Shown in pieces: positions 92 to 62,018 of a stretch of DNA of 64,000 bases. Below the pieces are notes generated by a model. It saw only the letters and a program-made list of their open reading frames with translations, was not told the DNA's origin and ran no database searches. Location of the stretch: the IMG/VR virus record IMGVR_UViG_3300044981_000338, positions 62,001 through 126,000 of that record; one strand, written 5' to 3'. Numbering within the stretch: position 1 is the first letter of the stretch; the number at the start of each line of letters is the position of its first letter. Made by a program: the position numbers and the translations under genes. The DNA comes from a virus.

Positions 92-715
92 CTATACCGT
101 TCGGATGATACCAGCCAGGGCGACCGAGGCAGAAGGGACCTTGGTCAGCATGATGACACCGAACACCTGCTCGAAAGGCAGGATGCCACCGATACCGCCA
201 GAAACAAGAGCTGCGTACTCCGCCACCGAGCTGGCGAGAGTCGAAGGCGAAGCGTAGCCCACCGATAGAAGAACAAGAGGACCCGCCGATAGGTTGAAGC
301 CTGCAAGCAGGTTCACCAGCGGCAGCTTCACGGACAGAACCGCTTCGATGAGGAACTTGATGCCGCCTATGCGAAGAGAGATCGCACCACCGAGGGAGAA
401 GGACACACCGAGCGGAGGCAAGATGGGAAGACCGAGAGACAACGCGGCAGCGATGCTCGCCTGCACCTGCAACACCGACGCAAGAAGCGTCTTCAAGTAG
501 GCGATGGGGTCGACGATCTGCAAAGAGAATGTGACCTGCGCCGCAAGGGCAGCTTGAAGCTGTGCTTGCAAGTCCGCGATGAGAGAACCGAGCCCGAAGG
601 GACCCGTCAGCATCAGGTCGACTTGTGCCAGCAAGGGACCGATGAGCCCTACCGTTGTGCTCAGCCCGACGTTGATACCTCCAAGGGGCAGGTCGGCGAT
701 GAAGACGGTGCTCAA
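92..715 (-). CDS. Hydrophobic tail/virion-associated protein, unknown
   Basis: A 207-residue protein made almost entirely of small hydrophobic residues, Gly, Ser, Leu and Val, with very few charges. It has several stretches long enough to cross a membrane or pack as amphipathic helices (around residues 8-35, 85-105 and 130-160). It overlaps the gpV-like gene by 4 bp (ATGA), so it is translated in the same operon. I do not recognise the family. The composition would fit a virion protein that sits in the tail lumen or acts on a membrane during DNA entry, but nothing in the sequence proves it. Confidence 0.65.
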   Translation of the reverse strand: MSTVFIADLPLGGINVGLSTTVGLIGPLLAQVDLMLTGPFGLGSLIADLQAQLQAALAAQVTFSLQIVDPIAYLKTLLASVLQVQASIAAALSLGLPILPPLGVSFSLGGAISLRIGGIKFLIEAVLSVKLPLVNLLAGFNLSAGPLVLLSVGYASPSTLASSVAEYAALVSGGIGGILPFEQVFGVIMLTKVPSASVALAGIIRTV

Positions 716-1962
716 GCAAGAACCTTGTTGTTACCTGTGGCGATGGTGCCGGGTAGAGGCAACGCCGGCGGACACTGAATCGTTGCCGCACACGGGGTTC
801 CTGGTGTAGGCGGATTGGAAAACGTGAGGATGACTGGGGCTGGTACAAGTAGAGGCAAAATGACCTGGTCGCCTAGACGGGCCACGGCTGTCAGTCCCGC
901 CCCCAGACGAACGGTGTCTCCCTTGATGTGCGAGTACGCACCTCCATCGATGTCGAAGCCGCTTCCCGCCGTCATCTGCGCGTTGCCGCCGAAGTGCCCC
1001 TCGAAGTCGCCCTTCACCTTGAAGGTGAGCTTCTTGTCGACCTGGAGGAGCATGTTGCCCTCCGTGCGCATGAGCGTGTTGCCTGTGCGGTCGAACGTGA
1101 ACTTGAAGACCGAGTTGGCGATGGTGGCCTGACTCGCTGTCTCCCCGCTCTCCGCCACGAAGCCTTTGGGGCTGACGGTCACCTCAAAGATGATGGGGTT
1201 CTTGCCCTTGCCGTCATCGCCTTGACCGACCCCCGCCTCCGCCAAGTTCTGCCCCCCATCCGGTTCGGGTATGGGCGCGAAGACCTTGCCGCAAGCGAGC
1301 TTCACATCAGCAAACTGGTCGGTCGAGAAGACCCGAAAGGTCTGCATGTACTGACCGGGGATCTGTGTCTGGGAGGGTCCTTCCTGGATGCCCCACACAA
1401 CGGAGCCCGCAGAGTTGTGGTGCTCGTAGTTCTCGCTGATGTCCTCGACCAGGTTGTTGAGCGGGATGAAGATGCGCTGAGCGAGCTCGGTTGCACCGAT
1501 CTGCAGTACACCCCCTCGATGCAGGATGACGAAGTTGCCGTCACGCGTGCGCATGACGATGTCACCGGGCTTGGGCTGCAGGCGTCCGCCGGCGAAGGTG
1601 GCGTCGGTTGTGTTGGCAGGCTGCTGTGCATGTGATGTCGTACCGGCCGGCGCGTCGTCACTCGCGTCGTCGATGGTCTCGGACGCCATGAGGAACATGC
1701 TGACGTACGGCGGTGAGCTGTCCGATGGGACGGTGACCGTGCACGTCGCGCCGACTTCTGGAAAGACGTACACGCCCTCCCCGTTCGAGTGGTGCAAGTA
1801 GAGACCACCCACCTGGATGTCGAAGTACTTCTTGCGGTCGAACTGTGCGTTGACGTCGACCGTCCACTTCACGAGGTTGATGTTCGTGATCCGTCCCTGA
1901 ATTACGCGCGCTGGGTCGTGACCCTCTACGTGCGTGAAGGACGTTCTGAACTTCGAGGCCAT
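712..1962 (-). CDS. Baseplate spike/hub protein, gpV (gp5/VgrG)-like
   Basis: A 416-residue protein with the layout of phage baseplate assembly protein V and T4 gp5-type spikes. An N-terminal OB-fold-like beta region (about residues 15-105, including IQGRITNIN and GVYVFPEVGATCTVT) is followed by a middle region and then a long beta-rich C-terminal part (about 255-380) with short repeating strands such as FKFTFDRTGNTLMRTEGN and HFGGNAQMTAGSGFDIDGG, as in a trimeric beta-helix. The tail tip would use it to puncture the outer membrane. It follows the RNA polymerase gene by 3 bp and overlaps the next gene by 4 bp. Family assignment rests on architecture and context, not on a database match. No lysozyme domain is visible. 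Confidence 0.7.
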   Translation of the reverse strand: MASKFRTSFTHVEGHDPARVIQGRITNINLVKWTVDVNAQFDRKKYFDIQVGGLYLHHSNGEGVYVFPEVGATCTVTVPSDSSPPYVSMFLMASETIDDASDDAPAGTTSHAQQPANTTDATFAGGRLQPKPGDIVMRTRDGNFVILHRGGVLQIGATELAQRIFIPLNNLVEDISENYEHHNSAGSVVWGIQEGPSQTQIPGQYMQTFRVFSTDQFADVKLACGKVFAPIPEPDGGQNLAEAGVGQGDDGKGKNPIIFEVTVSPKGFVAESGETASQATIANSVFKFTFDRTGNTLMRTEGNMLLQVDKKLTFKVKGDFEGHFGGNAQMTAGSGFDIDGGAYSHIKGDTVRLGAGLTAVARLGDQVILPLLVPAPVILTFSNPPTPGTPCAATIQCPPALPLPGTIATGNNKVLA

Positions 1963-1965
1963 CGG

Positions 1966-4900
1966 CTAGTAGTGGTGGGACGGTACAGCCTTCAGGTGCT
2001 CTCGCCCAGGCACCAGAGAGTCCTTCTTCGTCAGCCCAAACTCGGCCCCAAAAGCCACGCCCGGCACAGGATGCGTTCCGTGGAGGTGCGATACGCCGGC
2101 AGTTGCTGCTGCATCCAGCAACGTCGCACGAAGCTTCTCGTGCTGCAACTTCGCCATCCAGTCTTCTTGCATCTCGAGGGGTAGGGCCGTGATGCCCTTG
2201 AGCACGGGGGTGTGTTCTATGGGAGTGAGTCCTTGCGCCGCGAGCTCCTTGTTCATCTTGTTGACCGAGGTCAAAGGACGGTACTCCCCTGGTAGAACAT
2301 CTGGGTGACCACCGGGGTCGACGACGCGGGTGAGGTTACTCATTGCCTTGACCACGGTCTCGACCGCGCGACGCTTGATGTCGGTCTCCTTGTACAACCC
2401 GTAGATCTCGTTGGACAGATGGTTCTGCACCTTCTCCATGGAACCGGTGGCCTCATAGATGCGGTGCGGGTTGGCGAACGTGCGGTTCGGGTCCGAGAGA
2501 TGATCTCCTGCTGTTACGTGCATTCCTACAGCAGGAGGCTTCCATGCCTTGTAGCCGACAAGTGCCTCGGCGTTGGGAAGATTTTTGTGCAAGGGCAGAC
2601 CACTGTCGTCCTTGCCGACGTGGTGCCGCCGATTGTTCACGAAGACGTCGACGCCCGTAGCCGTTGGCTGCACCTTGTCGATGGTCCCGGAAACCATGGC
2701 GAGCGATGCCTCGTTCGGCAGCTCGTCGTGAAGCTCCATCAGTTGCTTGAACCGAGAGAAGGAGGAAAGAAGCTTCGAGCCGTGTTGTTCGCCAACGCCC
2801 CCCATGTGGAAGCTCTTGAGCGTGAGTTGCATGGCACGTTCGCCGACCGCATGCGCTGAATGCACGCCCACGTTCGTTCCGAGGTCGTGATGCTGCCCGC
2901 CGGCACTGAGCCCCATACACTTTTGGCAGATGCCCTTCTCGCTCTCGCACTTGAGCGGTGAGCGAACAAGAAGCGTTCCGTTAGGCTTGGCGGCCTTCAC
3001 CTTACTGACGAGGTCCGGTGTCAGAAGCGTTCTGGCAGGAATGTGCAGCTTGCCGTGAGAGAAATCCTGCTGCAAGTAGCGGTCGTGTATGTCCGGCTCG
3101 TTGATATCGAGCGCGATGCCTTTGCTGGTACCGCAATCGTGCTCGTCTACGAGCATGTGCATCATGTTGTTCATGAGCCGCTTGGACATGTACCCAGGCT
3201 CGCTCACTTCCTGCACCTTCATGACCGCACCGCGCCGTGCGCCGTGCATCTGCGTCCAGTAACCGCCCAGATCCAGGCCTTCGGAGTAGCTCCTGGTGAC
3301 TGGAGTCGCGATCTCCTTGTCGTTCGAATCCTTGTAGATCATAGGAGCGATGACCATCTGCTTGTAGTTGTCCCAGCCCGGCTTCACACCCGCACGGTAC
3401 ATCGTGAAGAGGTTGGTCGGATCCTTGTCCTGCTTCTTCTCATGCAAGGCACGCATCTCCTTGTCCGCCTTCTTGTAGAGGACGAGAGCCTGCTGATCCT
3501 TCTCAGCCTGGGAGAGACGCGAGTTGTGCTCGATGACGTCGACCTGCTTCATCACCGGGGCGAGTACGTGGTCACGCACCTGAGTGTCGGGCGTGAAATC
3601 GGCCAAGGATAGCGTGTGCGCTCCCATGGGAACGAAGACCGACTTCTCCTTGATCGCCACGGGCGTCTTATCGAGCGTTTTGAAGAGGAGCTTGTGACCT
3701 GCACTCGTAGGCTGCGGTATGTCGACCACGCCAAAGGCCGCGCCGTTGCCCAGGTCCTTCAGCTTGTTGACGGCCTCCCCATACTGCGGTGCGTGCTCTT
3801 TGGCGACCTGTGTGAGTAGGGTGTCGAGACCACCTTTGTTGATGCGGTAGTCGAGGTTGTGCAACGTGTGCGTCTGCATGTCCGCGGGCAGGGCGCTCGA
3901 GAGCAGAACACGACCTGCCGTGGTCTTCTTTCCACCCAGGTGCACCACATCGTTCACGTGCAAGCTGCCGCTACGTACGGCATCGAGGATGCTGCCGGGG
4001 TGGTCGAACTTTTTTCCCGTGTCCTTGCCAACCAACGACAGCTTGTAGAGGCCGAGGGCGCTCTCGAGCGTCGGCTGGTACATGACCTTGCCGCTCGCCT
4101 CGCTGAAGAGGTTGTTCGACGGGAACATCTTGTGCGCCTCTTCGAGCGCTTCGCGCGTGATGGGCACGAAGGCACTCATCGTGTCGCCGTCGAAGTCGGC
4201 GTTGAAGCCGCCAGTCACAAGCGGGTGGATCTTGATGGCGCTGCCCTCGACTGGACGGGCCTTGAAGGCCTGCACGCTGTACTTGTGCAGGGCCGGGTCG
4301 CGCTTCAGAAGGAGAGGGCGCTTGTCCATCACCCGGTCAAGAGCACGCCAGACCTGCGGCGTCTTCTTGGCGAGAGCCGCAGGTCCCTGCATCTCGTTCT
4401 GAATGGCGCCCATCTCCTTGAGCTCGCGCACGACGAAGGGGCGGTACAGGTCCAGTGCGGCATGCCTGGGGATCCCCACTTCATCAAGTCCGAGCGCGGG
4501 CTCCGGAACGATGGTGGACCGCATCGTCAGGTCCTGACGCCGGTTGATGAGAACGTCCTGGAAGAAGCCATGCTTAGGCGAGCTCCCCGTGATCTCGTGG
4601 AGAAGCCCCTTGTGCGGAACCTCCGCATACGTGCCGAAGCCCATGATGGCCTTGACGCCATCGTAGTAGTCGCTGCGTAGATCCTTCTTGCCCTCGTCGG
4701 TGAGGTTCTTGGAGAGAACCGGGTCCTTCAGCTTGTCGTTGACCTTGGCGAAGTCCGAGTAGAGCGAGTTGATGTCGTGGAACCGTACGTTGCCATCAGG
4801 CAGCATCGAGACCGGACGCATGATGGGTGGCAGCACAGGTAGCTGGTGAAGTACGTACGCCTCGCTCGGCTTCATGCCTGTCTGGCTGAGTGCACGCAAG

Positions 4901-7900
4901 TACTTCACCTTTTTCAGGCCCTGGTCGAGCTTGGCGCCCTTGACTCCCTTGAGAGCCGCGGTCGCCTTGGGGAGCTCCTTGTTCACGTCGACGCGGCTCA
5001 GAAGAAGCTCGATGCCGGCGCCGCCAGTGACACCGGCGTCGACGCTCGTGACGTGACCGTTCGCCGTAACTCCCTTGTCTCCGTGTACGACCGCCATGAA
5101 GTCGTTCTTGGAGAGGCCCGTCAGAGCACGAATGGGCGTCTCGAAGATGGGGTTGGGCACTGGCTCGGAGAGACGAATGCGTGACCAGCGACGGCCTCCA
5201 TGGCCTCCTGTGATCCCCTCGTCGAACAAGCCACCCGGCTTGACTTTCGGGATGCCACTCTTGTCTAGCTTCGAAGAGAGGATGTCGGCGGGGTTGGGCA
5301 GCTCTTTCTTCGCCAGGTTGAGCACGTGCTCGTCTGTCATCGGCGTCAGAACGAAGTCGTTGCCCTTCTTGTCCATGTTCACACCCATGCCGCGAAGCAT
5401 GTCGGTGAACTTCTGGAAGGCGAAGGCGGGCTTCGGCGTGGGCAGAGGAGCACCTGTCTGAATGGCCGCCCAGATCTTGTCGTGGTCACTCGGCCAACGC
5501 TTGCTCGGATCAGACTGCGGATCGCGCCCCTCCGACTTGTACGTCTGCATCTCGCGGATGTTCGCCTTCGCTCCATGCGCGAGGAGCGCGTAGAGGCCGA
5601 GCGTGCCCATGGACTGGCCTCCTGTACCGGAACCACCTGTAGGCTGCAGATTCGTATCGTAGTGCTCCTGCGCTCCTCCGCGCAGGTCCATACCGCTTCG
5701 TACTGAGAGCTTCTTCTCGACCTGGTGGGCCAGCTTCAAGTGGTGCTGTGGTCCCACCATCACCTTGCCCAGACTCTGCTTGGTGGCCGGATCGAAAAGC
5801 TCCTCGGTGTCTGAGAGACCGTGCGCTTTGAGCGCGGCGCGCACCTCCGCCAAGCTGTCGACGTTCGGTGCGAAGTTGCGGACGATGTAGGGCTTATGTG
5901 TCTTCTCTGCAATCTTGCCGGCCGCCGTCTCGAGCAGCTGGCCAACGTTCATGCGCCCCGGCACGCCGCTAGGATTGAGCGCCACTTCGACGTGCTTGCC
6001 GTCCTTGGTGTGCGGCATCTCCTGGTCAGGCAGGATCATCGTGACGATGCCCTTGTTGCCGTAGCGCCCGGCCATCTTGTCGCCGACCTGCATCGGCTCG
6101 ACCGTACGTACATGCACGGACAGGCCGTCTTTGCCTTTGTGCACCCCAACGACCTCACCCTCGAAGTCGCTGTCCCAGAGAAGACTCTTGTTCGTGTGCC
6201 CTCCGCTCATGCTCTTGCGGATGGCAGCGAGGCCGGTCCTGTCTTTCAGGTTGTACGGCTTCATCGCCGCGATGAGCGGGTCGCCAGGCTTGACCTTGGT
6301 GCCCACTTTTATGACGCCATCGTCGTCGAGGCGTGCGTACTGCTCCTTGCTAAAGAGACCTGGATGCTCGAGGTGGAACTTCTTCTTGCTCAGCACCAGG
6401 TCCGAATCGAGCGGCAGCGAGTGCTTCTGCAAGTGCTCGCTCGAGAGCTTCTCGGCAGCACTCTCTGAAATGACGATGCCGTCCTCGAAGTTGTATCCCT
6501 TGAAGGGAATGTACGCGGTGCGCAAGTTGGTACCAAGCGCGAGGTCGCCGTTCTTCGAGTAGTTCGTGTCCGCGATGATCTGCCCCGCCTTCACCGAGTC
6601 TCCGGCTTTCACGAGAGTCGTCGAGTGCATGACCCCCTTCGCATCATTGAGCGGGTAGTTGTTGTAGAGCTGCACCTCGTGCTTCTGTCCGCCCTTGTCC
6701 TCGAGGATGATGGCGTCCTTCTTCACGTCGAGGACCTTGCCGTCGACAAGGGACGCATGTGACGACTGCCGCCCCATCATCCCTTCGAACGTCGGCGAAG
6801 ACTTCATCCCCGTTCCCACCTGCACGAGTGGTGCTTGCCGATGTACGAGGGAGACGGCTTGCTCCATCTGACGACTGGCCATCGAAGCCCGCCCGCCGCT
6901 CGTGTTGCCGAGGAAAGGGATGAGGTTCGACGTCGGGTTGAACAGCTGCCATGCGTGCGGCATCACGTAAGTGGCATCCTCGAACTTGCCGTCTCGGATC
7001 TCGTTTCCGGGCGTGCTCATTCGAACGGTCTTGGCGATGGGCTTCGGCTTGCCGCCCTCCCAGGTCACTTGATCAGGAAGAACAACACTCGCGTGCATAA
7101 ACTTCGTGGGCGAGACGAGCTCCGTCTCGCCTGTGCGAAGGTTGTGCAGACGAATCTTGACCTCGTGTCCCTCCTTCTTGATCCCGATGGGCATGCGCAG
7201 CGTGACGCCCGTCTTCTCCCCTTCCGGTGTATTGATGGGATCGAGGAACCCGAGATGGCTCGGGTCGACGAACTTGGCGTCGTAGGTGATGGAGCGCTCG
7301 TTCTTGATGCCGCCCGTCCCCATCACGGTCGTCTGCAGCGCCGACGAGATCATTTCGACGGGGTTGTACTGAGACGGTACGCGCGCAGAGCTGTTCTTGT
7401 GGAAGGACTCCTTGAGCGGCCGGTTGAACAAGTCGAACTTGATGACGTCTCGGATGTCCTTGGCGGTGTTGATCTTGCGCGACGTCTTCTCCTGGATGTT
7501 GCGGTTGGCGTAGCGAAGGGCGTCGTTGGCGTAGTCGCCCACCGTACGCAGATCCTTGAAGACGAGTGAGTCGCGGTCGTCCTCAGGATGTCCAGCGTGC
7601 ACCTTCAGTAACTTCTGCGTCGCGAGGCGCAGCGCTTCACCCGTCACGTTGGTGAACGGCTTGCCGACCGTGACTTCGGTCGCGTCAGGACGAAGCGTCG
7701 ACGCGGACATCCGGTCGTAGAAATGCGTCGCTGCAGTCTCTCGATCCGGAGCTGCGGTCTTCTTGGTCGTTCGGTAGAAAGAATCGAGCACGCCGGACGC
7801 ACCACGCGCGTTCTTGTTCGCCTCGAGCACTTCTTTGCCCCAGGCCTTCTCGAGGTCGTGGTCCTCCACCCCCATCGTCTTGAGCAGGTGGTAGAGCGGC

Positions 7901-8409
7901 ATGTGCGTCTTGCTCGGCTCGTACTGCATCGAGAAGACCTTGCTCGCAGGATCGAGCAAGAGGTCGAACTGGCGCACACCCTTGGCAGTCGCACTGCCGG
8001 TCACGTTGAAGTGGCTCTCGAGCTCACCGCTCGCGCGCCGGCGCGTGTAGATGCCAGGCTTGAGCTGCCACTGGTTGTCGACCTGGTACTCCTGCCCGTT
8101 GATGATGTACGAGTAGCGTCCCGTGATCTTCGGGATGTCCACGAGGCGGATGCGTCGCTGGTCGACGACCTTACCGCTGGCGTTGTCTTTGAGCGTGAGG
8201 TGCGCGTAGACGGGTACGGCCCACGTATCCCCGCTCACTTTCGCCGCGTGCTGGCTGCGGATGTCGTCAGGGTGCTTGTCGTCCTTCACCTCAATCTTGT
8301 CGAGGTGAACAGTCTGCAACTTTCCCTTGAGGGGGAACTGTCCTGAGATGCCTTCCAGGACGCGTCCTTGAAGTTGCTCGGACGCTTCCTGCAGGTCGAG
8401 GTAGGCCAT
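1966..8409 (-). CDS. Single-chain DNA-directed RNA polymerase, fused beta and beta-prime
   Basis: About 2147 residues encode both large subunits of a multisubunit RNA polymerase in one chain. The first half carries beta signatures: GYNFEDGIVISE (about residue 637), KMAGRYGNKGI (about 778) and a TGGQSMGTLGLYAL segment (about 930). The second half starts near HGGRRWSRIRLSEP (about 1068) and carries the beta-prime catalytic loop NADFDGDTM (about 1401, three Asp for Mg), a cysteine pair region CESEKGICQKC (about 1819) and the trigger loop QLTLKSFHMGG (about 1861). E. coli beta plus beta-prime total about 2750 residues, so this is a trimmed version. No alpha, omega or sigma gene is seen nearby. 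I chose ATG at 8409 because the ATG at 8487 falls inside the opposing promoter motif and adds a non-homologous 26-residue leader. It is the first gene of a minus-strand operon leading to baseplate genes. Confidence 0.95.
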   Translation of the reverse strand: MAYLDLQEASEQLQGRVLEGISGQFPLKGKLQTVHLDKIEVKDDKHPDDIRSQHAAKVSGDTWAVPVYAHLTLKDNASGKVVDQRRIRLVDIPKITGRYSYIINGQEYQVDNQWQLKPGIYTRRRASGELESHFNVTGSATAKGVRQFDLLLDPASKVFSMQYEPSKTHMPLYHLLKTMGVEDHDLEKAWGKEVLEANKNARGASGVLDSFYRTTKKTAAPDRETAATHFYDRMSASTLRPDATEVTVGKPFTNVTGEALRLATQKLLKVHAGHPEDDRDSLVFKDLRTVGDYANDALRYANRNIQEKTSRKINTAKDIRDVIKFDLFNRPLKESFHKNSSARVPSQYNPVEMISSALQTTVMGTGGIKNERSITYDAKFVDPSHLGFLDPINTPEGEKTGVTLRMPIGIKKEGHEVKIRLHNLRTGETELVSPTKFMHASVVLPDQVTWEGGKPKPIAKTVRMSTPGNEIRDGKFEDATYVMPHAWQLFNPTSNLIPFLGNTSGGRASMASRQMEQAVSLVHRQAPLVQVGTGMKSSPTFEGMMGRQSSHASLVDGKVLDVKKDAIILEDKGGQKHEVQLYNNYPLNDAKGVMHSTTLVKAGDSVKAGQIIADTNYSKNGDLALGTNLRTAYIPFKGYNFEDGIVISESAAEKLSSEHLQKHSLPLDSDLVLSKKKFHLEHPGLFSKEQYARLDDDGVIKVGTKVKPGDPLIAAMKPYNLKDRTGLAAIRKSMSGGHTNKSLLWDSDFEGEVVGVHKGKDGLSVHVRTVEPMQVGDKMAGRYGNKGIVTMILPDQEMPHTKDGKHVEVALNPSGVPGRMNVGQLLETAAGKIAEKTHKPYIVRNFAPNVDSLAEVRAALKAHGLSDTEELFDPATKQSLGKVMVGPQHHLKLAHQVEKKLSVRSGMDLRGGAQEHYDTNLQPTGGSGTGGQSMGTLGLYALLAHGAKANIREMQTYKSEGRDPQSDPSKRWPSDHDKIWAAIQTGAPLPTPKPAFAFQKFTDMLRGMGVNMDKKGNDFVLTPMTDEHVLNLAKKELPNPADILSSKLDKSGIPKVKPGGLFDEGITGGHGGRRWSRIRLSEPVPNPIFETPIRALTGLSKNDFMAVVHGDKGVTANGHVTSVDAGVTGGAGIELLLSRVDVNKELPKATAALKGVKGAKLDQGLKKVKYLRALSQTGMKPSEAYVLHQLPVLPPIMRPVSMLPDGNVRFHDINSLYSDFAKVNDKLKDPVLSKNLTDEGKKDLRSDYYDGVKAIMGFGTYAEVPHKGLLHEITGSSPKHGFFQDVLINRRQDLTMRSTIVPEPALGLDEVGIPRHAALDLYRPFVVRELKEMGAIQNEMQGPAALAKKTPQVWRALDRVMDKRPLLLKRDPALHKYSVQAFKARPVEGSAIKIHPLVTGGFNADFDGDTMSAFVPITREALEEAHKMFPSNNLFSEASGKVMYQPTLESALGLYKLSLVGKDTGKKFDHPGSILDAVRSGSLHVNDVVHLGGKKTTAGRVLLSSALPADMQTHTLHNLDYRINKGGLDTLLTQVAKEHAPQYGEAVNKLKDLGNGAAFGVVDIPQPTSAGHKLLFKTLDKTPVAIKEKSVFVPMGAHTLSLADFTPDTQVRDHVLAPVMKQVDVIEHNSRLSQAEKDQQALVLYKKADKEMRALHEKKQDKDPTNLFTMYRAGVKPGWDNYKQMVIAPMIYKDSNDKEIATPVTRSYSEGLDLGGYWTQMHGARRGAVMKVQEVSEPGYMSKRLMNNMMHMLVDEHDCGTSKGIALDINEPDIHDRYLQQDFSHGKLHIPARTLLTPDLVSKVKAAKPNGTLLVRSPLKCESEKGICQKCMGLSAGGQHHDLGTNVGVHSAHAVGERAMQLTLKSFHMGGVGEQHGSKLLSSFSRFKQLMELHDELPNEASLAMVSGTIDKVQPTATGVDVFVNNRRHHVGKDDSGLPLHKNLPNAEALVGYKAWKPPAVGMHVTAGDHLSDPNRTFANPHRIYEATGSMEKVQNHLSNEIYGLYKETDIKRRAVETVVKAMSNLTRVVDPGGHPDVLPGEYRPLTSVNKMNKELAAQGLTPIEHTPVLKGITALPLEMQEDWMAKLQHEKLRATLLDAAATAGVSHLHGTHPVPGVAFGAEFGLTKKDSLVPGREHLKAVPSHHY

Positions 8410-8482: not shown

Positions 8483-8491
8483 GGCATAAGA
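8483..8491 (+). promoter_or_regulatory. Putative phage promoter -10 element, GGCATAAGA
   Basis: The nonamer GGCATAAGA ends 38 bp before the ATG of the first plus-strand gene (8529). Near-identical elements sit at the same place before the other two plus-strand blocks (18469-18477 and 23445-23453). No consistent -35 box is obvious. The 119-bp divergent gap between 8409 and 8529 must also hold the promoter for the RNA polymerase operon, which I could not pinpoint. Confidence 0.5.
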
Positions 8492-9343: not shown

Positions 9344-9924
9344 TGGCTGAGCTGACTATGCAGCCCTCCGGCCAGGTCTGTGCGGACTGCGGCGAAAACA
9401 TCCGCTACACAGAAGAAGCGTGGCTGGTGCAGGTCGTTCAGCTGCAGAAGGTCGGCGACCAGCTTCAGTACACGCCAGTCATCGATGAAACAGACCCAGC
9501 GCGCGACTTCCTGTTCTCACCGTACTTCTTCTGCTTCAACTGCTGGGAGAACAGCTACGAAGATCTAAAGGACGAGCTGGAAGACCAGCCGCCCAACGAA
9601 GACCCCCACAGCATCGCTGAGTGCACCTGCTGCGGTAGCAGCATTCGGGCTGGTGAGTACACAGGGCTCTTCATGGTCGGAGAGTTCCACTTGTCGCGTA
9701 GGTCGCCGAACGGCGTGTCGGGAGGGACCTTCCAACCAAACGCTGCGCCTGAGGCGCTCTGCTTCTACTGCCTCTACATCCTCAACGACAACTTCATCGA
9801 GATGTGGGACGAAGTCTCGCAATTCGGTGAGTGCGCAGACTGCATCTTCGTTCGCTGCTGGAGAGGTGCTTCCTGCTCCTGCGGCTGCCATACACCTGCA
9901 CTCGAGACCACGGAGACAACCTGA
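9298..9924 (+). CDS. Multi-cysteine zinc-ribbon protein, 208 aa
   Basis: Contains several knuckle-type cysteine pairs: CADC (about residue 28), CFNC (about 79), CTCC (about 109) and CFYC (about 154), plus a C-terminal cluster CADC...CSCGC (about 178-197). The spacing suggests at least two zinc-binding modules. Such proteins often bind nucleic acid or protein partners. The function here is not known. An alternative start is the ATG at 9328 (MEPNLVAEL), preceded by AAGGG. The stop overlaps the ATG of the AAA+ gene (TGATG), indicating coupling. Confidence 0.65.
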   Translation: MDSLGEKKGAMEPNLVAELTMQPSGQVCADCGENIRYTEEAWLVQVVQLQKVGDQLQYTPVIDETDPARDFLFSPYFFCFNCWENSYEDLKDELEDQPPNEDPHSIAECTCCGSSIRAGEYTGLFMVGEFHLSRRSPNGVSGGTFQPNAAPEALCFYCLYILNDNFIEMWDEVSQFGECADCIFVRCWRGASCSCGCHTPALETTETT

Positions 9925-11108
9925 TGGCGACCAACCCTGAGAACCTGCTGACCATTGCTTTGCTCACGCCGCAAGACGACCCGCGCGACCCTGTCTGCCG
10001 ATGGGGAGGTCCAGTCCTTCTCTGGGGGCCGCCGGGCATCGGCAAGTCAGGCATCATCGAGCAGACCGGCGAAGGCCTCGACCTGTCTGTCGAGACGCTT
10101 TACCTCTCAACCCTGCAACCGGAGGACATCTCAGGCATTCCGATGCCAGACGCTAAGTTCGGTGCGAGGCGCGTGTGCGACCTGCCGCAGATCCAAGGTC
10201 TCTACGAAGCAGGTCGAGGCATTCTCTTTCTCGACGAGCTCACTACAGCGCGTCCCGCAGTCCAGGGAGCAGGTCTCGGCATCGTCTACAACCGCAAGAT
10301 CGCCGGCAAGCACCTACCTCCTGGTGTCAGGGTCGTCGGTGCTGCCAACAAGGCCGAAGACGCCGCCGGCGGCTGGAACTTGGCTGCCCCCATGGCCAAC
10401 CGCCTGCTTCACTTCGACCTAACCGCACCGTCTCCCGAGAAGTGGGCCTCCTGGTTGCTCACAGGTCCCAACGAGATGCCCATCTCCATCACCGCAGGCG
10501 AGGAGATGGTACGAGAACAATGGGGCAGCATCTGGCCCAAGTACCAGGGTCTCGGTGCAGGCTTCGTCAAGAGCAACGGTGCCAAACTCTACGCCATGCC
10601 GGCAGCGGGTCACAAGGACCGAGGGCGTGCATGGGCGTCTCCGCGCAGCTGGGTTAGTGCACTTCGTTGCATGGCCACTGCTGAAGCGCTCGACATGAAG
10701 GAGTACGCGCTCGACATGCTCACCGGCGCAGTGGGTGACGGTCCTGGAGCGGAGTGGGCAGAGTGGGTCGCGAAAGCGAACCTGCCAGACCCGAAGGACA
10801 TCCTCGAGAACGGCTGGCACCCGGATCGATCTCGGCTCGATGTCGCGTTCGCTGCCTACTCGTCGGCCATCGGATGGGCCTTGTGCAAGGTCGACAAGGC
10901 CGAACAGGAGAAGTACGCCGTCATGGCCTGGGACCTCATCGCGATGGCCATCAAGGACCGCGTGGCCGACATCGTGCTGCCCTGCGGCGCGTCGCTGATG
11001 CGCGCCGGGTACACCACCAAGAAAGGCGGTGCCATCGCCAAGGCTGCCATGGGTCCCACAGCGCACTTTGGCGAGACGAACCTCGCCAACTACGTGAGGA
11101 AGGGATGA
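9924..11108 (+). CDS. MoxR-type AAA+ ATPase
   Basis: A 394-residue ATPase with Walker A GPPGIGKS (residues 35-42), Walker B ILFLDEL (100-106) and a sensor-1 region VRVVGAANK (135-143), where the Asn follows a beta strand as in MoxR and dynein-related AAA+ proteins. Start ATG at 9924 overlaps the previous stop. It overlaps the next gene, an HExxH/VWA protein, by 4 bp. MoxR ATPases typically work with VWA-domain partners to remodel or insert cofactors into target proteins, so the pair is likely one functional unit. Its target in phage infection is unknown. Confidence 0.88.
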   Translation: MATNPENLLTIALLTPQDDPRDPVCRWGGPVLLWGPPGIGKSGIIEQTGEGLDLSVETLYLSTLQPEDISGIPMPDAKFGARRVCDLPQIQGLYEAGRGILFLDELTTARPAVQGAGLGIVYNRKIAGKHLPPGVRVVGAANKAEDAAGGWNLAAPMANRLLHFDLTAPSPEKWASWLLTGPNEMPISITAGEEMVREQWGSIWPKYQGLGAGFVKSNGAKLYAMPAAGHKDRGRAWASPRSWVSALRCMATAEALDMKEYALDMLTGAVGDGPGAEWAEWVAKANLPDPKDILENGWHPDRSRLDVAFAAYSSAIGWALCKVDKAEQEKYAVMAWDLIAMAIKDRVADIVLPCGASLMRAGYTTKKGGAIAKAAMGPTAHFGETNLANYVRKG

Positions 11109-12496
11109 CGTCGCACGAAGAGAAGATCGAACTGGCGAGGGCGTGCGCAGTCTTCGGTGCGCCCTACTTCGCAAGCGTCATCTACGGGTTCATCTACACA
11201 CCCGTGGAAGGCGCGCGAACCATGTTCTGCACACCGAGAATGATCCTCGGCTACGACCCAGAATGGGCCATGGAGGGTACGGTTGAAGAGCTGGCCGCGG
11301 ACATCGTGCACGAAGTCCACCACTTCCGACGAGAGCACTTCGTACGCGGCGCGCTCGTAGAAGACAAGAAGCTCTTCAACCTCGCCGGCGACCTCGCCAT
11401 CAACCCGGACCTGAAAGCGGGGGGGTGGAAGCTCGCTACTACAAAACGACCCGCTGTCTTTCCGGAACACTACGGTTTGCCTCCAGGGCTGACAACCGAG
11501 CAGTACTACGAGCTGCTCTTGCAGCAGAAGCACAAGACGGGTCAGCGTCCGAAGCCGAAGAACGCGCAACCAAAGGACGGCAAAGGTCCACCGCAGCCGA
11601 ACGCGGGAGGAGGCGAGGAACAAGACGAGTCCGAAGAAGCGCAGGAGGGCATCTGTCAGGGCAGCTGCGGAGGCATTGCAGGCAACCCCAGTAGTTCTGG
11701 ACTCGAGGCGAAGCTCGATGCACAGAAGAACGTCGGCCGAAGCGAAGCCGAGATCAAGGGCATCGAAAAGAAGCTGGCGAATGACATCAAGGAGTTCGCG
11801 GCCAAGAACGGCCGCGGCTCCGTTCCCAGCTCCCTTCTCGACTGGGCCACCACCTTCGAGACGGAGTCTTACGTCCGCTGGCAAGACGAGCTTGCGCAGG
11901 TCCTTCGCGACAACACGGGGCGCATCCAGTCCGGCGGCGATGACTTCTCGCTGCAGAGGCCTGCGAAGCGGTCCATCATGCGAGGTATGCCGCGGCCAGG
12001 TCTTGTAGAACACCTGCCGGAGGTGGCCATCCTTCGCGACAGCTCCGGGTCGATGCTCTCCAAACAGCTAACGGATGCCTGCCGTGAGGCGTACTACGTC
12101 ATGGAAGCACTCGGCATCGACGAGGTCTGGTTCGCCGATGCTGACACGGCCATCTCCGTTCCTTGGAAGCGTGTAGGCGCGCAGTTCTTCAAGGAGCTGA
12201 CGGAAGTGTATGGGCGCGGCGGCACCGACTTCCGCCAACCCATAGAGAGCGCGCTCGCACTCAACCCACACCCGGACATCATCGTGTACACCACTGATGG
12301 AGATGGTTCGGTCGCGCGCATGCCGCCCCCTGACGCCGCTGTCATCTGGTGCATCGTACCAAGCCACTACAACAAGGCACCCGCACGCTGGGGCCACACA
12401 GTTATCATCAGCGACGACCCGAAGAAGAGGAACGCGCCCATCCAGTACGCCGGCGAAATAGAGGAGACAGAGGAGGACGAGGAGGATGACGACTAG
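11105..12496 (+). CDS. HExxH metallopeptidase-like plus VWA domain protein (DUF2201-like)
   Basis: A 463-residue protein with two recognisable parts. The N-terminal part has a zinc-peptidase motif HEVHH (residues 69-73) followed by further His and Arg. A charged, low-complexity linker (about 140-185, with CQGSC) follows. The C-terminal VWA domain has a complete metal-ion-dependent adhesion site: DSSGS (312-316), GGTDF (372-376) and TTDGDG (396-401). This matches the known pairing of putative metallopeptidase and VWA-like domains that co-occur with MoxR ATPases. The start ATG overlaps the ATPase stop (ATGA) and has a GGAAGG site. The tail is very acidic (EETEEDEEDDD). A protein-remodelling or protease-like role with the ATPase is inferred. 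Confidence 0.82.
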   Translation: MTSHEEKIELARACAVFGAPYFASVIYGFIYTPVEGARTMFCTPRMILGYDPEWAMEGTVEELAADIVHEVHHFRREHFVRGALVEDKKLFNLAGDLAINPDLKAGGWKLATTKRPAVFPEHYGLPPGLTTEQYYELLLQQKHKTGQRPKPKNAQPKDGKGPPQPNAGGGEEQDESEEAQEGICQGSCGGIAGNPSSSGLEAKLDAQKNVGRSEAEIKGIEKKLANDIKEFAAKNGRGSVPSSLLDWATTFETESYVRWQDELAQVLRDNTGRIQSGGDDFSLQRPAKRSIMRGMPRPGLVEHLPEVAILRDSSGSMLSKQLTDACREAYYVMEALGIDEVWFADADTAISVPWKRVGAQFFKELTEVYGRGGTDFRQPIESALALNPHPDIIVYTTDGDGSVARMPPPDAAVIWCIVPSHYNKAPARWGHTVIISDDPKKRNAPIQYAGEIEETEEDEEDDD

Positions 12497-12772: not shown

Positions 12773-13036
12773 CTAAGCGACCTGCTGCTTTCGCACCTCG
12801 CCATGCGCCAGGCAGCTCGCAGCAACTGTGCGAGCGCGCGCAGCCAAAGCAGGCTCGCCACACCTGCGTGCCTGTCGCAGTTGAACAACAGCCAGGGCAC
12901 CAATAGTCGTGCGATCAGCAGCGCATACAGCAGTGGCTTCTGCGTGCTCGAGGCTGCTTATGCTCTGACGTAACACTTCTCGAAGGTTGGGCATGAAGCT
13001 GCCCAAGAGCACGAGACGTGCCCATGCAAGAATCAA
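12773..13036 (-). CDS. Probable small gene after the portal, 87 aa
   Basis: A minus-strand frame that starts with TTG overlapping the portal stop by 4 bp (TTGA) and ends just 12 bp before the bidirectional terminator. Both facts suggest a coupled last gene. The product is helical and Ala/Arg rich (for example LREVLRQSISSLEHAEATAV) with several cysteines. An internal ATG (MPNLREVL) is an alternative start. No family recognised, and it could still be a chance frame. Confidence 0.42.
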   Translation of the reverse strand: MILAWARLVLLGSFMPNLREVLRQSISSLEHAEATAVCAADRTTIGALAVVQLRQARRCGEPALAARARTVAASCLAHGEVRKQQVA

Positions 13037-15099
13037 CCACCAGCGCGGCGCGCGGGCAGCTGTTCTGGCTGAGGGCGCATATCGACGGCGTTGGCGGTGC
13101 TCTTGCCACCAGCCTGCGTTGCAGGAGCTGCGCCCATCGCGGTCAGCATCTGCTCGACGAGGTCGGCAAGGTCGGGACTCTGAAGGCGCAGGTTCTGCAG
13201 GGCGATGGTCTTCTGCTTGTCCGGCATCTGCGCAATCATGTGCGCCTGCGCCTGGGCGAACGACGGGAGGTCGACGTTCAGGCCACTCGAGGGCGTCATC
13301 TTCTGGTTGCCCTTCAGCTGACTCGCGACGTTCGACAGGAAGTCCTGCGGGCCGTTGCTGTTCGCAGGTTGCCCTGCTGGAAGTTGCGGTGCGGGCTGCG
13401 CGGTTTCTAGCTGTTGCTGCTCATCAGGTACCACACCTGCGGCTGCCATCTCACCGCCAGGTACTCCTCCGCCTGCTGCGTCGGGTCCACCGGGTTCGCC
13501 TGGCGCGTTCGGCGCACCCTGCGCTGCCATCATCGCTTCCTGGGCCTTGGCCTGGAACTTCATCATGACGAGCTGCGCTTCGCCCTGGATCTCGGCTATC
13601 GCGAGCTGCTGCTTCTTGGTCGCCTCGAGACGCGCATCGGTCTCGCGGATCATGATCTGGTTCTCCTCATCCTGCGAGAGGTCGCTATCGGCGAGGAGCG
13701 TCGTGTCCGAGACCTTGTTCGACTGGTTCAACTGGAAGAGGTAGGCCTTACGCTGCAGGTCGTCGGCCATCTTGAACGGCTTGAAGCGGATCTGCGCCTC
13801 AGGCCACCCGAGATATGCAGCCACCTGCTTCATCACGAACTTGGCCAGCGCCTTGTGTCTCAGGATGTACCCGAGGAACATGTTCTCCATCATGCGCATG
13901 GAGACGTTGGTGCCCGCGTAGCTCATGCCGCCAAGCAGAAACTCGCGTGGCACGCCCATGCCTGTCATGATCTGCTCGGACCATGCCTGAATTTCGGCCG
14001 TGAGGAGAAGCGCGCGCCCATCCCCACCAATGGTCTGGTTGCCCATCGGAAGCGGCAGAATGGGGATATAGTTGTTGTCGTAGCGCCAGCGCGCAATCTC
14101 GGCGGCGATCTGATCACGCCAGTCGACGAGGTTGATGGTCGTGTACGGATCCGAGCTCCCGCTGCCTGCCTGCGGGAAGAGCACCCGAAGGGGCACGATG
14201 TGCTCTAGCAGGATGGCCTCCTGCGCCTTCTTCATCACTTGCAGGTAGAACGTGTCCTTGAGCACTGGCAAAAGGAGCGGCGTTCCCCATCCGCGGTCCT
14301 GCGTCGCCAGCGTCGGCCGGCGCATGTGGAAGAAGTTGTCCTTCGAGAAGATGACGCCCTTCTGCTCCTGCATGGCCTGGATGAAGACCTGCGGTACGCC
14401 CTCGACCACGTCCTTGCGCCCGATGACGATGTCATTCCGTACAGTCGAGGGGATGGTGTAGAAGTACGTGTACTCTCCCGAGATGTCGTTGTACGTGATC
14501 TCGATGTCCTCCGGGTTCCACCGGATGGTTTTGATGCCGCTCGCGTTCTTGTAGTAGAAGTCCTTCGCGAGCGCGTCGCCGACGTACCGGCACTTCGGGC
14601 ACGTCATGCGGAACTGGAAGCTCGTGAAGATCCAGTTGGCTCGGATCTTCGCGGCTTCGTCGCGGAAGTCGCAGTTCTTGCAGTAGAGGTACTTCTTGAA
14701 CGGGAAGCCGAGGCTCACACACCCGTTGCCGTACGCGTGGTAGTCGAGACCGCACTCTATCTGAAACGCCCGGTAGCGAAGGTGGTCCTGGAAGTACTCC
14801 GTCCACCGTTTCTTCACCTCAGGGCTCTCGTGGTCGATGATGATGTCGGTGACGGGATACTCCGAGAGCTTGAAGACCGTCGCGTTGATGAGCGGGTTGG
14901 TGAGAAAGTAGTACCGGCACCACTTGAACAGTTGCTTGACCGTGACGGGCAGGTACGTGTGTGCAACGTCGAAGAAAGGGCTCGGGTAGTTGACCCCTTG
15001 CACCGGTGAGCCCTGAATGCGTCCTCGCGTTGCGGCGAACCGCAGACCGCTCGCCGGCCCGGTCGCAACACCCATTCCGCCGCCGCCGATGAAACTCAT
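13033..15099 (-). CDS. Portal protein with inserted zinc knuckle
   Basis: A 688-residue protein with the features of large phage portals: a conserved aromatic, mixed alpha/beta N-terminal half (YFLTNPLINATVFKLSEYP, DYHAYGNGCVSLGFPF), a MGVPREFLLGGMSYAGTN segment (about residues 390-408) typical of the portal core, and a long C-terminal helical stretch rich in Glu, Lys and Gln (about 470-530) followed by a Pro/Gly/Gln-rich tail. Unusually, the N-terminal half carries CKNC (140-143) and CPKC (167-170), a likely zinc site. The dodecameric portal is the DNA channel at the head vertex. The start overlaps the stop of the upstream gene (TGATG). Assignment is by pattern, without a search. Confidence 0.72.
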   Translation of the reverse strand: MSFIGGGGMGVATGPASGLRFAATRGRIQGSPVQGVNYPSPFFDVAHTYLPVTVKQLFKWCRYYFLTNPLINATVFKLSEYPVTDIIIDHESPEVKKRWTEYFQDHLRYRAFQIECGLDYHAYGNGCVSLGFPFKKYLYCKNCDFRDEAAKIRANWIFTSFQFRMTCPKCRYVGDALAKDFYYKNASGIKTIRWNPEDIEITYNDISGEYTYFYTIPSTVRNDIVIGRKDVVEGVPQVFIQAMQEQKGVIFSKDNFFHMRRPTLATQDRGWGTPLLLPVLKDTFYLQVMKKAQEAILLEHIVPLRVLFPQAGSGSSDPYTTINLVDWRDQIAAEIARWRYDNNYIPILPLPMGNQTIGGDGRALLLTAEIQAWSEQIMTGMGVPREFLLGGMSYAGTNVSMRMMENMFLGYILRHKALAKFVMKQVAAYLGWPEAQIRFKPFKMADDLQRKAYLFQLNQSNKVSDTTLLADSDLSQDEENQIMIRETDARLEATKKQQLAIAEIQGEAQLVMMKFQAKAQEAMMAAQGAPNAPGEPGGPDAAGGGVPGGEMAAAGVVPDEQQQLETAQPAPQLPAGQPANSNGPQDFLSNVASQLKGNQKMTPSSGLNVDLPSFAQAQAHMIAQMPDKQKTIALQNLRLQSPDLADLVEQMLTAMGAAPATQAGGKSTANAVDMRPQPEQLPARRAGG

Positions 15100-61990: not shown

Positions 61991-62018
61991 GGCCACTCCG
62001 GTGACGCGCGCAGATGGT

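Follow-up and report, generated by a model that had tools for sequence, protein, structure and literature searches.

Does a phage gene that runs beta and beta-prime together encode a complete bacterial-type RNA polymerase (RNAP) in one chain, and with which partners, and at what stage of infection, would such an enzyme work? The question is raised by a minus-strand gene in a 64,000-nucleotide stretch of DNA (positions 62,001 to 126,000 of IMG/VR virus record IMGVR_UViG_3300044981_000338, hereafter the window), which is part of a 170,766-base phage contig. The best explanation overall, which we hold with reasonable but not strong confidence, is a sigma-dependent, alpha-free, single-chain bacterial-type RNAP that is probably packaged with its sigma factor.

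Architecture of the joined polymerase chain

The frame from 8409 to 1966 continues for 2147 codons without interruption, and the four motifs quoted in an earlier note on this DNA (GYNFEDGIV, KMAGRYGNKGI, NADFDGDTM, and QLTLKSFHMGG) are all found in it in the order claimed. An in-frame ATG also lies upstream, at 8487, but the alignment of relatives places the start at residue 1 (MAYLDL), and in the homologue at locus L002 (71% identity) the open frame starts one codon ahead of the equivalent residue. Pfam domains follow one another along the chain in the order Rpb2_3, Rpb2_6, Rpb1_1, Rpb1_2, and Rpb1_5, and all except Rpb1_1 pass their family cut-offs (Table 1). We built a hidden Markov model (HMM) from 41 family members, whose alignment also supplies the conservation counts given below. 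This model is colinear with Salmonella RpoB (residues 54–228, 421–932, and 1050–1338) and thereafter with Salmonella RpoC (residues 141–973 and 1191–1347), with scores of 383 bits to RpoB and 526 bits to RpoC. The C-terminus of beta leads directly into the N-terminus of beta-prime with no linker visible in the alignment. The continuous frame and the RpoB-then-RpoC alignment thus place both cores in one chain, as the earlier note had proposed, and the hidden stop that it had considered is not present in the frame. The same single open reading frame (ORF) was found in 127 related IMG/VR loci (101 distinct sequences), while the other RNAP loci are mostly cut by contig ends and three contain in-frame TGA codons. 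Because the ORF is common to 127 loci, the fusion is not a sequencing error and an assembly artefact is ruled out; as judged from these sequences, the joining of beta to beta-prime is a trait of the lineage.

The equivalents of E. coli beta R678, E813, D814, K1065, K1073, and R1106, and of beta-prime R425, D460, D462, D464, R780, Q929, and H936, are invariant in the family (41/41), so that the catalytic Asp residues, whose possible loss had been a concern, are kept throughout. The features of a bacterial-type two-barrel RNAP are present: the DFDGD motif, the two barrel lysines, the bridge helix, and the trigger loop. AlphaFold2 was run on two overlapping pieces. The model of residues 1–1100 has a predicted local distance difference test score (pLDDT) of 80 and a template modelling (TM) score of 0.72 to bacterial beta; residues 960–2147 alone gave a poorer model (predicted TM score 0.39), for which Foldseek gave bacterial beta-prime as the best matches. 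For each half, the best 50 fold matches are all cellular multisubunit RNAPs. It is very probable that the chain is a catalytically competent RNAP.

The description of the enzyme as compact stands in part. The first zinc finger of beta-prime is missing in 41/41 members, and the family also lacks SI3 and some of the beta lobe (RpoB about 229–420); apart from these losses, the bacterial-type core is there in full. Three positions that contact rifampicin, D516, H526, and S531 (E. coli numbering), hold other residues across the family, and the phage enzyme is therefore predicted to be rifampicin resistant.

Alpha, sigma, and evidence from virions

The earlier note had seen neither alpha nor sigma. 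For alpha, this was borne out: PF01193 gave no match over cut-off in any of 32 genomes, compared with 13 of 14 positive control genomes, and the alpha dimer as an assembly platform is the feature of a bacterial-type RNAP that was not found. For sigma, the claim fell. Direct PF04542 and PF04545 searches found no sigma factor in the window's contig, and the standard models of sigma-70 regions 2 and 4 detected clear factors in some relatives only; we set aside weak PF04545 matches in two genomes (G001 and G013) in favor of the A2 sigma profile. The clear factors led to a conserved, divergent sigma-70-type factor, with Sigma70_r3 and Sigma70_r4 over cut-off in one seed, which has a homologue in 26/32 genomes according to a two-sequence sigma profile. 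Genes of the close relative G013 correspond to the right end of the window's contig as far as 12.7 kb and to its left end from 27.0 kb onward; the sigma gene, at 17.5–18.3 kb, lies in between. Sigma would thus be absent from the contig because its gene falls in the ∼14 kb that separate the two contig ends, and the complete genome is probably circular or circularly permuted, with a size near 185 kb. This gene would serve sigma-dependent initiation, a feature of the class, and we consider it quite likely that the RNAP works with the phage sigma. Seven relatives (G008, G016, G017, G020, G026, Arash, and D69) encode a further sigma whose region 2 is canonical, either alongside the divergent one or in its place, and some relatives of the window's phage may use two sigmas.

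Packaging in the virion, which the earlier note had raised from gene position, is supported by published particle proteomics of a cultured relative, Salmonella phage Arash, rather than of the window's phage. Gp206, one of the two pieces of the Arash RNAP, was the most counted protein in the particles (128 unique peptides, 3516 spectra, 100% coverage), and the other piece, Gp216, was present with 40 unique peptides and 1210 spectra, as was the sigma factor Gp10 with 24 unique peptides and 467 spectra (PMC10585845). Gp10 is a member of the conserved divergent sigma family; the second Arash sigma, Gp196, is not named among the particle proteins (PMC10585845). From the published counts we computed 2.3, 2.0, and 2.0 spectra per residue for Gp206, Gp216, and Gp10, respectively, with 1.5 for the portal and 4.3 for the capsid as comparison. 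A helicase gene, gp217 (L283:7262-8680), lies beside the Arash gene for the C-terminal part of beta-prime; its product was counted in particles with 38 peptides and 1148 spectra, a weak homologue (E-value 1e-04) is encoded in the G013 stretch missing from the window's contig, and the helicase may be a transcription partner.

Since RNAP and sigma occur in the particles of one cultured relative, the virus may deliver transcription machinery, ready for use, into its host. Beta and beta-prime, placed end to end, would form a complete bacterial-type two-barrel core in one chain. Covalent joining of the large subunits would replace alpha-driven assembly, so that an alpha dimer would no longer be needed. 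A phage sigma-70-type factor, presumably docked on the retained clamp helices and flap, would find the promoters. Core and sigma would travel in the virion and enter the host together with the DNA, and the injected pair would start phage transcription without the host RNAP, with an enzyme expected to resist rifampicin. By analogy with Arash, we think it likely, short of firm confidence, that the RNAP is packaged and used early. There is perhaps an even chance that a widespread lineage packs and injects such a two-protein machine, an alpha-free core plus sigma, for promoter-specific initiation without host RNAP; independence from the host enzyme, which the earlier note had suggested, is plausible but unproven.

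Relatives and alternative explanations

We compared 56 beta-prime sequences, comprising 34 fused phage, 18 bacterial, and four other phage sequences. The fused phage sequences group together (Shimodaira–Hasegawa-like approximate likelihood ratio test, SH-aLRT, 98), the bacterial sequences form their own group (SH-aLRT 99), and the RNAPs of Cobetia phage Carin-5, Yersinia phage GN1, Rhizobium phage RHph_TM3_3_6, and Vibrio phage 1.031.O lie outside both. Carin-5 and GN1 have separate beta and beta-prime genes; for the other two phages, the beta-prime gene only was examined. The beta tree displays the same three groups, with weaker support for the fused one (67). The RNAPs of Arash and Vibrio phage D69 nest in the fused clade, with a single cut within beta-prime past the catalytic barrel. 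Arash gp206 (L069:11953-16530) and its D69 homologue (L070:11953-16536) consist of beta plus N-terminal beta-prime, the remainder being a separate gene; their annotations read beta subunit or hypothetical protein, with no remark on their joint nature, and our comparison corrects the annotation of the Arash "beta" to beta plus the first part of beta-prime. Because the one-piece sequences L196 and L197 branch deeper in the drawn tree, the fission in Arash and D69 looks secondary, a conclusion that depends on the root.

How these enzymes relate to known systems can be seen from several comparisons. The mReC clade comprises phage RNAPs that the accessible part of its description treats in terms of a beta and a beta-prime subunit (Weinheimer and Aylward 2020, PMC7481178). 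The present RNAPs likewise come from IMG/VR, match both beta and beta-prime profiles (through Pfam and the family HMM rather than COG models), carry NADxDGD, form a clade separate from cellular RNAP in both trees, and have virion genes nearby. That same part of the description mentions fusion for crAssphage only and does not discuss sigma or packaging of the RNAP (PMC7481178). The one-chain clade is probably the same as mReC or overlaps it, and enzymes of this type were probably among those collected in 2020 under that name, in the form of beta plus beta-prime subunits; a viral RNAP gene for "beta and beta prime" at the base of mReC is passed without remark in another study (PMC10159854). The mReC capsid marker PF07068 is absent from genome G000 and all other fused-RNAP genomes searched and present in all four comparison phages (Carin-5, GN1, RHph_TM3_3_6, and Vibrio 1.031.O); the capsid of the window's phage is phrog_2522. 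The mReC terminase marker PF03237 has no match in G000, which has PF05876 instead, and weak or moderate matches in 5/21 family genomes. Fused-RNAP phages thus have a non-gp23 capsid and mostly GpA-type terminases, and the four comparison phages a gp23-type capsid match, a difference that suggests two separate phage lineages with bacterial-type RNAPs.

Arash and the Vibrio phages D69, D148, and D181 share with the window's phage a homologous RNAP in the fused clade, sigma, portal, terminase, and capsid; they differ in that the RNAP chain is cut once inside beta-prime. Carin-5 and GN1 also encode a homologous RNAP, in Carin-5 with an annotated sigma gene adjoining, but they have separate beta and beta-prime genes and a gp23-type capsid and fall outside the fused group in the trees. 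The RNAPs of phiKZ/AR9-type jumbo phages are likewise two-barrel enzymes akin to cellular ones, and one of them is packaged; their architecture is the opposite, with at least four or five polypeptides and sigma unreported (PMC7598289, PMC7824862).

The known single-chain phage RNAPs are far from the bacterial enzyme and are not known to use sigma, and the bacterial-like phage RNAPs described so far come in several pieces. In the literature that we searched, no account turned up of a one-chain phage beta-beta-prime RNAP of bacterial type, its sigma, or its packaging. Of the earlier note's concern that the fusion might be well described already, it therefore holds that the phage RNAP clade is known, while a description of the fusion was not found. 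The family aligns residue by residue with bacterial RNAP, yet it is one chain for which alpha was not found. It offers a simple system for asking what alpha, omega, and the missing domains do, and whether a covalently joined core can still work with sigma; should it be packaged, the phage would be injecting a holoenzyme.

Could the chain instead be a single-subunit RNAP of the crAss/YonO/QDE-1 type? The crAss-like phi14:2 gp66, YonO, and P23-45 gp64/gp96 also have two barrels in one chain, and some are packaged in virions (PMC10770324); the similar length (2180 aa for the phi14:2 RNAP), the same barrel order, and the virion location speak for this assignment. The family profile, which scores as given above to RpoC and RpoB, has no match to the phi14:2 RNAP or P23-45 gp64, which rules out membership of the crAss/P23-45 type, and the fold matches to cellular multisubunit RNAPs argue the same way; we give this assignment next to no weight. 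Nor does the gene appear to be an artefact or a recently captured host rpoBC. Fused rpoB-rpoC genes occur in bacteria such as Helicobacter and Wolbachia, and the bacterial fused enzymes keep alpha and omega. Further fusions are reported in Wolinella and Adlerbacteria (PMC11515920), and our own locus L234 is another instance. These are likewise one chain, but they are host enzymes: phage and bacterial fused sequences separate in both trees, no sampled bacterial rpoBC gene branches inside the phage clade, and recent capture is thereby rejected. Together with the recurrence of the ORF in the 127 loci, this leaves artefact or capture a negligible probability. A polyprotein, synthesized as one chain that a phage protease then cleaves to release beta and beta-prime, is very unlikely. 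Head proteases are common in large phages, and Arash and D69 function with two chains, although these are split inside beta-prime and not at its border with beta; against cutting, the junction has no visible linker, and Gp206, in which beta continues into N-terminal beta-prime, is the product of one gene and is covered to 100% by peptides, albeit peptides cannot exclude cutting.

More weight attaches to the alternative that RNAP and sigma serve middle and late genes while host RNAP acts early, the particle signal being carry-over. Arash particles contained 116 proteins, many of them enzymes, and the authors caution about carry-over (PMC10585845); the RNAP gene lies in a structural, hence probably late, gene cluster, and P23-45 and phiKZ-type phages possess non-virion RNAPs. 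These observations weigh against packaging, and further points tell against the reading as a whole: the Arash RNAP is about 33% identical and in two pieces; the sigma gene is seen in relatives and not in the window's phage itself; and no promoter motif emerged from 7-mers in 65 intergenic gaps, which yielded purine-rich motifs only, resembling ribosome-binding sites or coding bias. On the other side, RNAP tops the Arash spectra and nearly equals sigma per residue, the other sigma is unlisted, and the whole contig contains a single match to the window's RNAP. We therefore regard a purely intracellular role as somewhat unlikely and retain the packaged, sigma-dependent single-chain RNAP as the preferred reading.

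Gene neighborhood and variant loci

As claimed from its placement with tail genes, the RNAP gene directly precedes a baseplate-like gene within a conserved virion gene cluster (Table 1). The product of the baseplate-like gene weakly matches Arash gp238 (E-value 4e-04), and the gene has the same position in 35 loci. The portal homologue is 31% identical to Arash portal gp204 (E-value 7e-87) and syntenic in 32 loci. More than 30 loci keep the order portal, RNAP, baseplate-like protein, terminase, with the terminase about 6 kb downstream of RNAP in this cluster.

Table 1. Positions in the window of the RNAP gene, its parts, and neighboring genes.
Feature	Window position	Strand	Residues	Remarks
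Single-chain RNAP gene	1966..8409	-		2147 aa; beta half, then beta-prime half
Beta half	5371..8409	-	1-1013	
Rpb2_3			346-404	Pfam 9.6e-07
Rpb2_6			569-905	Pfam 2.6e-59
Beta active-site lysines	6052..6078	-	K778, K786	E. coli K1065, K1073; motif GDKMAGRYGNKG; 41/41
Beta-prime half	1969..5370	-	1014-2147	Without first zinc finger and SI3
Rpb1_1			1157-1229	Pfam, under family cut-off
Clamp helices	4636..4776	-	about 1212-1258	Aligned with RpoC about 264-309; where sigma region 2 usually docks, a role predicted here from the alignment
Rpb1_2			1358-1428	Pfam 2.3e-25
Catalytic NADFDGD	4183..4203	-	1403-1409	D1405, D1407, D1409 in 41/41
Rpb1_5			1711-2035	Pfam 1.3e-17
Bridge helix	3166..3270	-	about 1714-1748	Aligned with RpoC about 769-803
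Second zinc site	2917..3135	-	C1759, C1821, C1828, C1831	39 to 41 of 41
Trigger loop	2794..2838	-	about 1858-1872	Q1861, H1868 in 41/41
Baseplate-like protein	712..1962	-		Starts 3 bases past RNAP gene; PHROG baseplate assembly 1.8e-04
Next cluster gene	92..715	-		No function assigned; syntenic in 20 loci
Portal protein homologue	13033..15099	-		About 4.5 kb upstream of RNAP gene

Divergent from the RNAP gene, positions 9831-12496 of the plus strand hold a MoxR-like AAA ATPase gene (PHROG 9e-47) overlapping a 580-aa ORF, in which a DSSGS motif was seen by eye (VWA-like) and which is syntenic in 20 loci.

Searched against bacterial genome contigs, the window's protein matched no fused RNAP, and with the profile, fused sequences came up in a few contigs of metagenome-assembled genomes (L203, L204, L205, and possibly L254), evidence too weak to assign a host. 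The bacterial fusion L234:2594-10399, on a Caldisericota metagenome-assembled contig, is one ORF of 2602 aa and groups with cellular RNAPs.

The window's RNAP gene is free of inteins. In relatives, likely inteins sit at three conserved motifs, following INTPEG (about residue 395) or GDKM (about 779) or located at NADFDGD (about 1409), in loci L024, L034-L037, L047, L049-L051, L054, and L066; longer RNAP ORFs are also found at L127, L134, L146, L159, L171, L177, L190, and L192. Among the likely inteins tested, LAGLIDADG domains were over cut-off in two of three, and Intein_splicing matched weakly in one. RNAP frames broken only by in-frame TGA codons occur at L162:4965-11270 (one), L183:5106-11084 (four), and L191:5283-11189 (two). 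In L183 the next stop is itself TGA, making the case for recoding less clear; in L162 and L191 the frames end in TAA, and recoding of TGA is possible.

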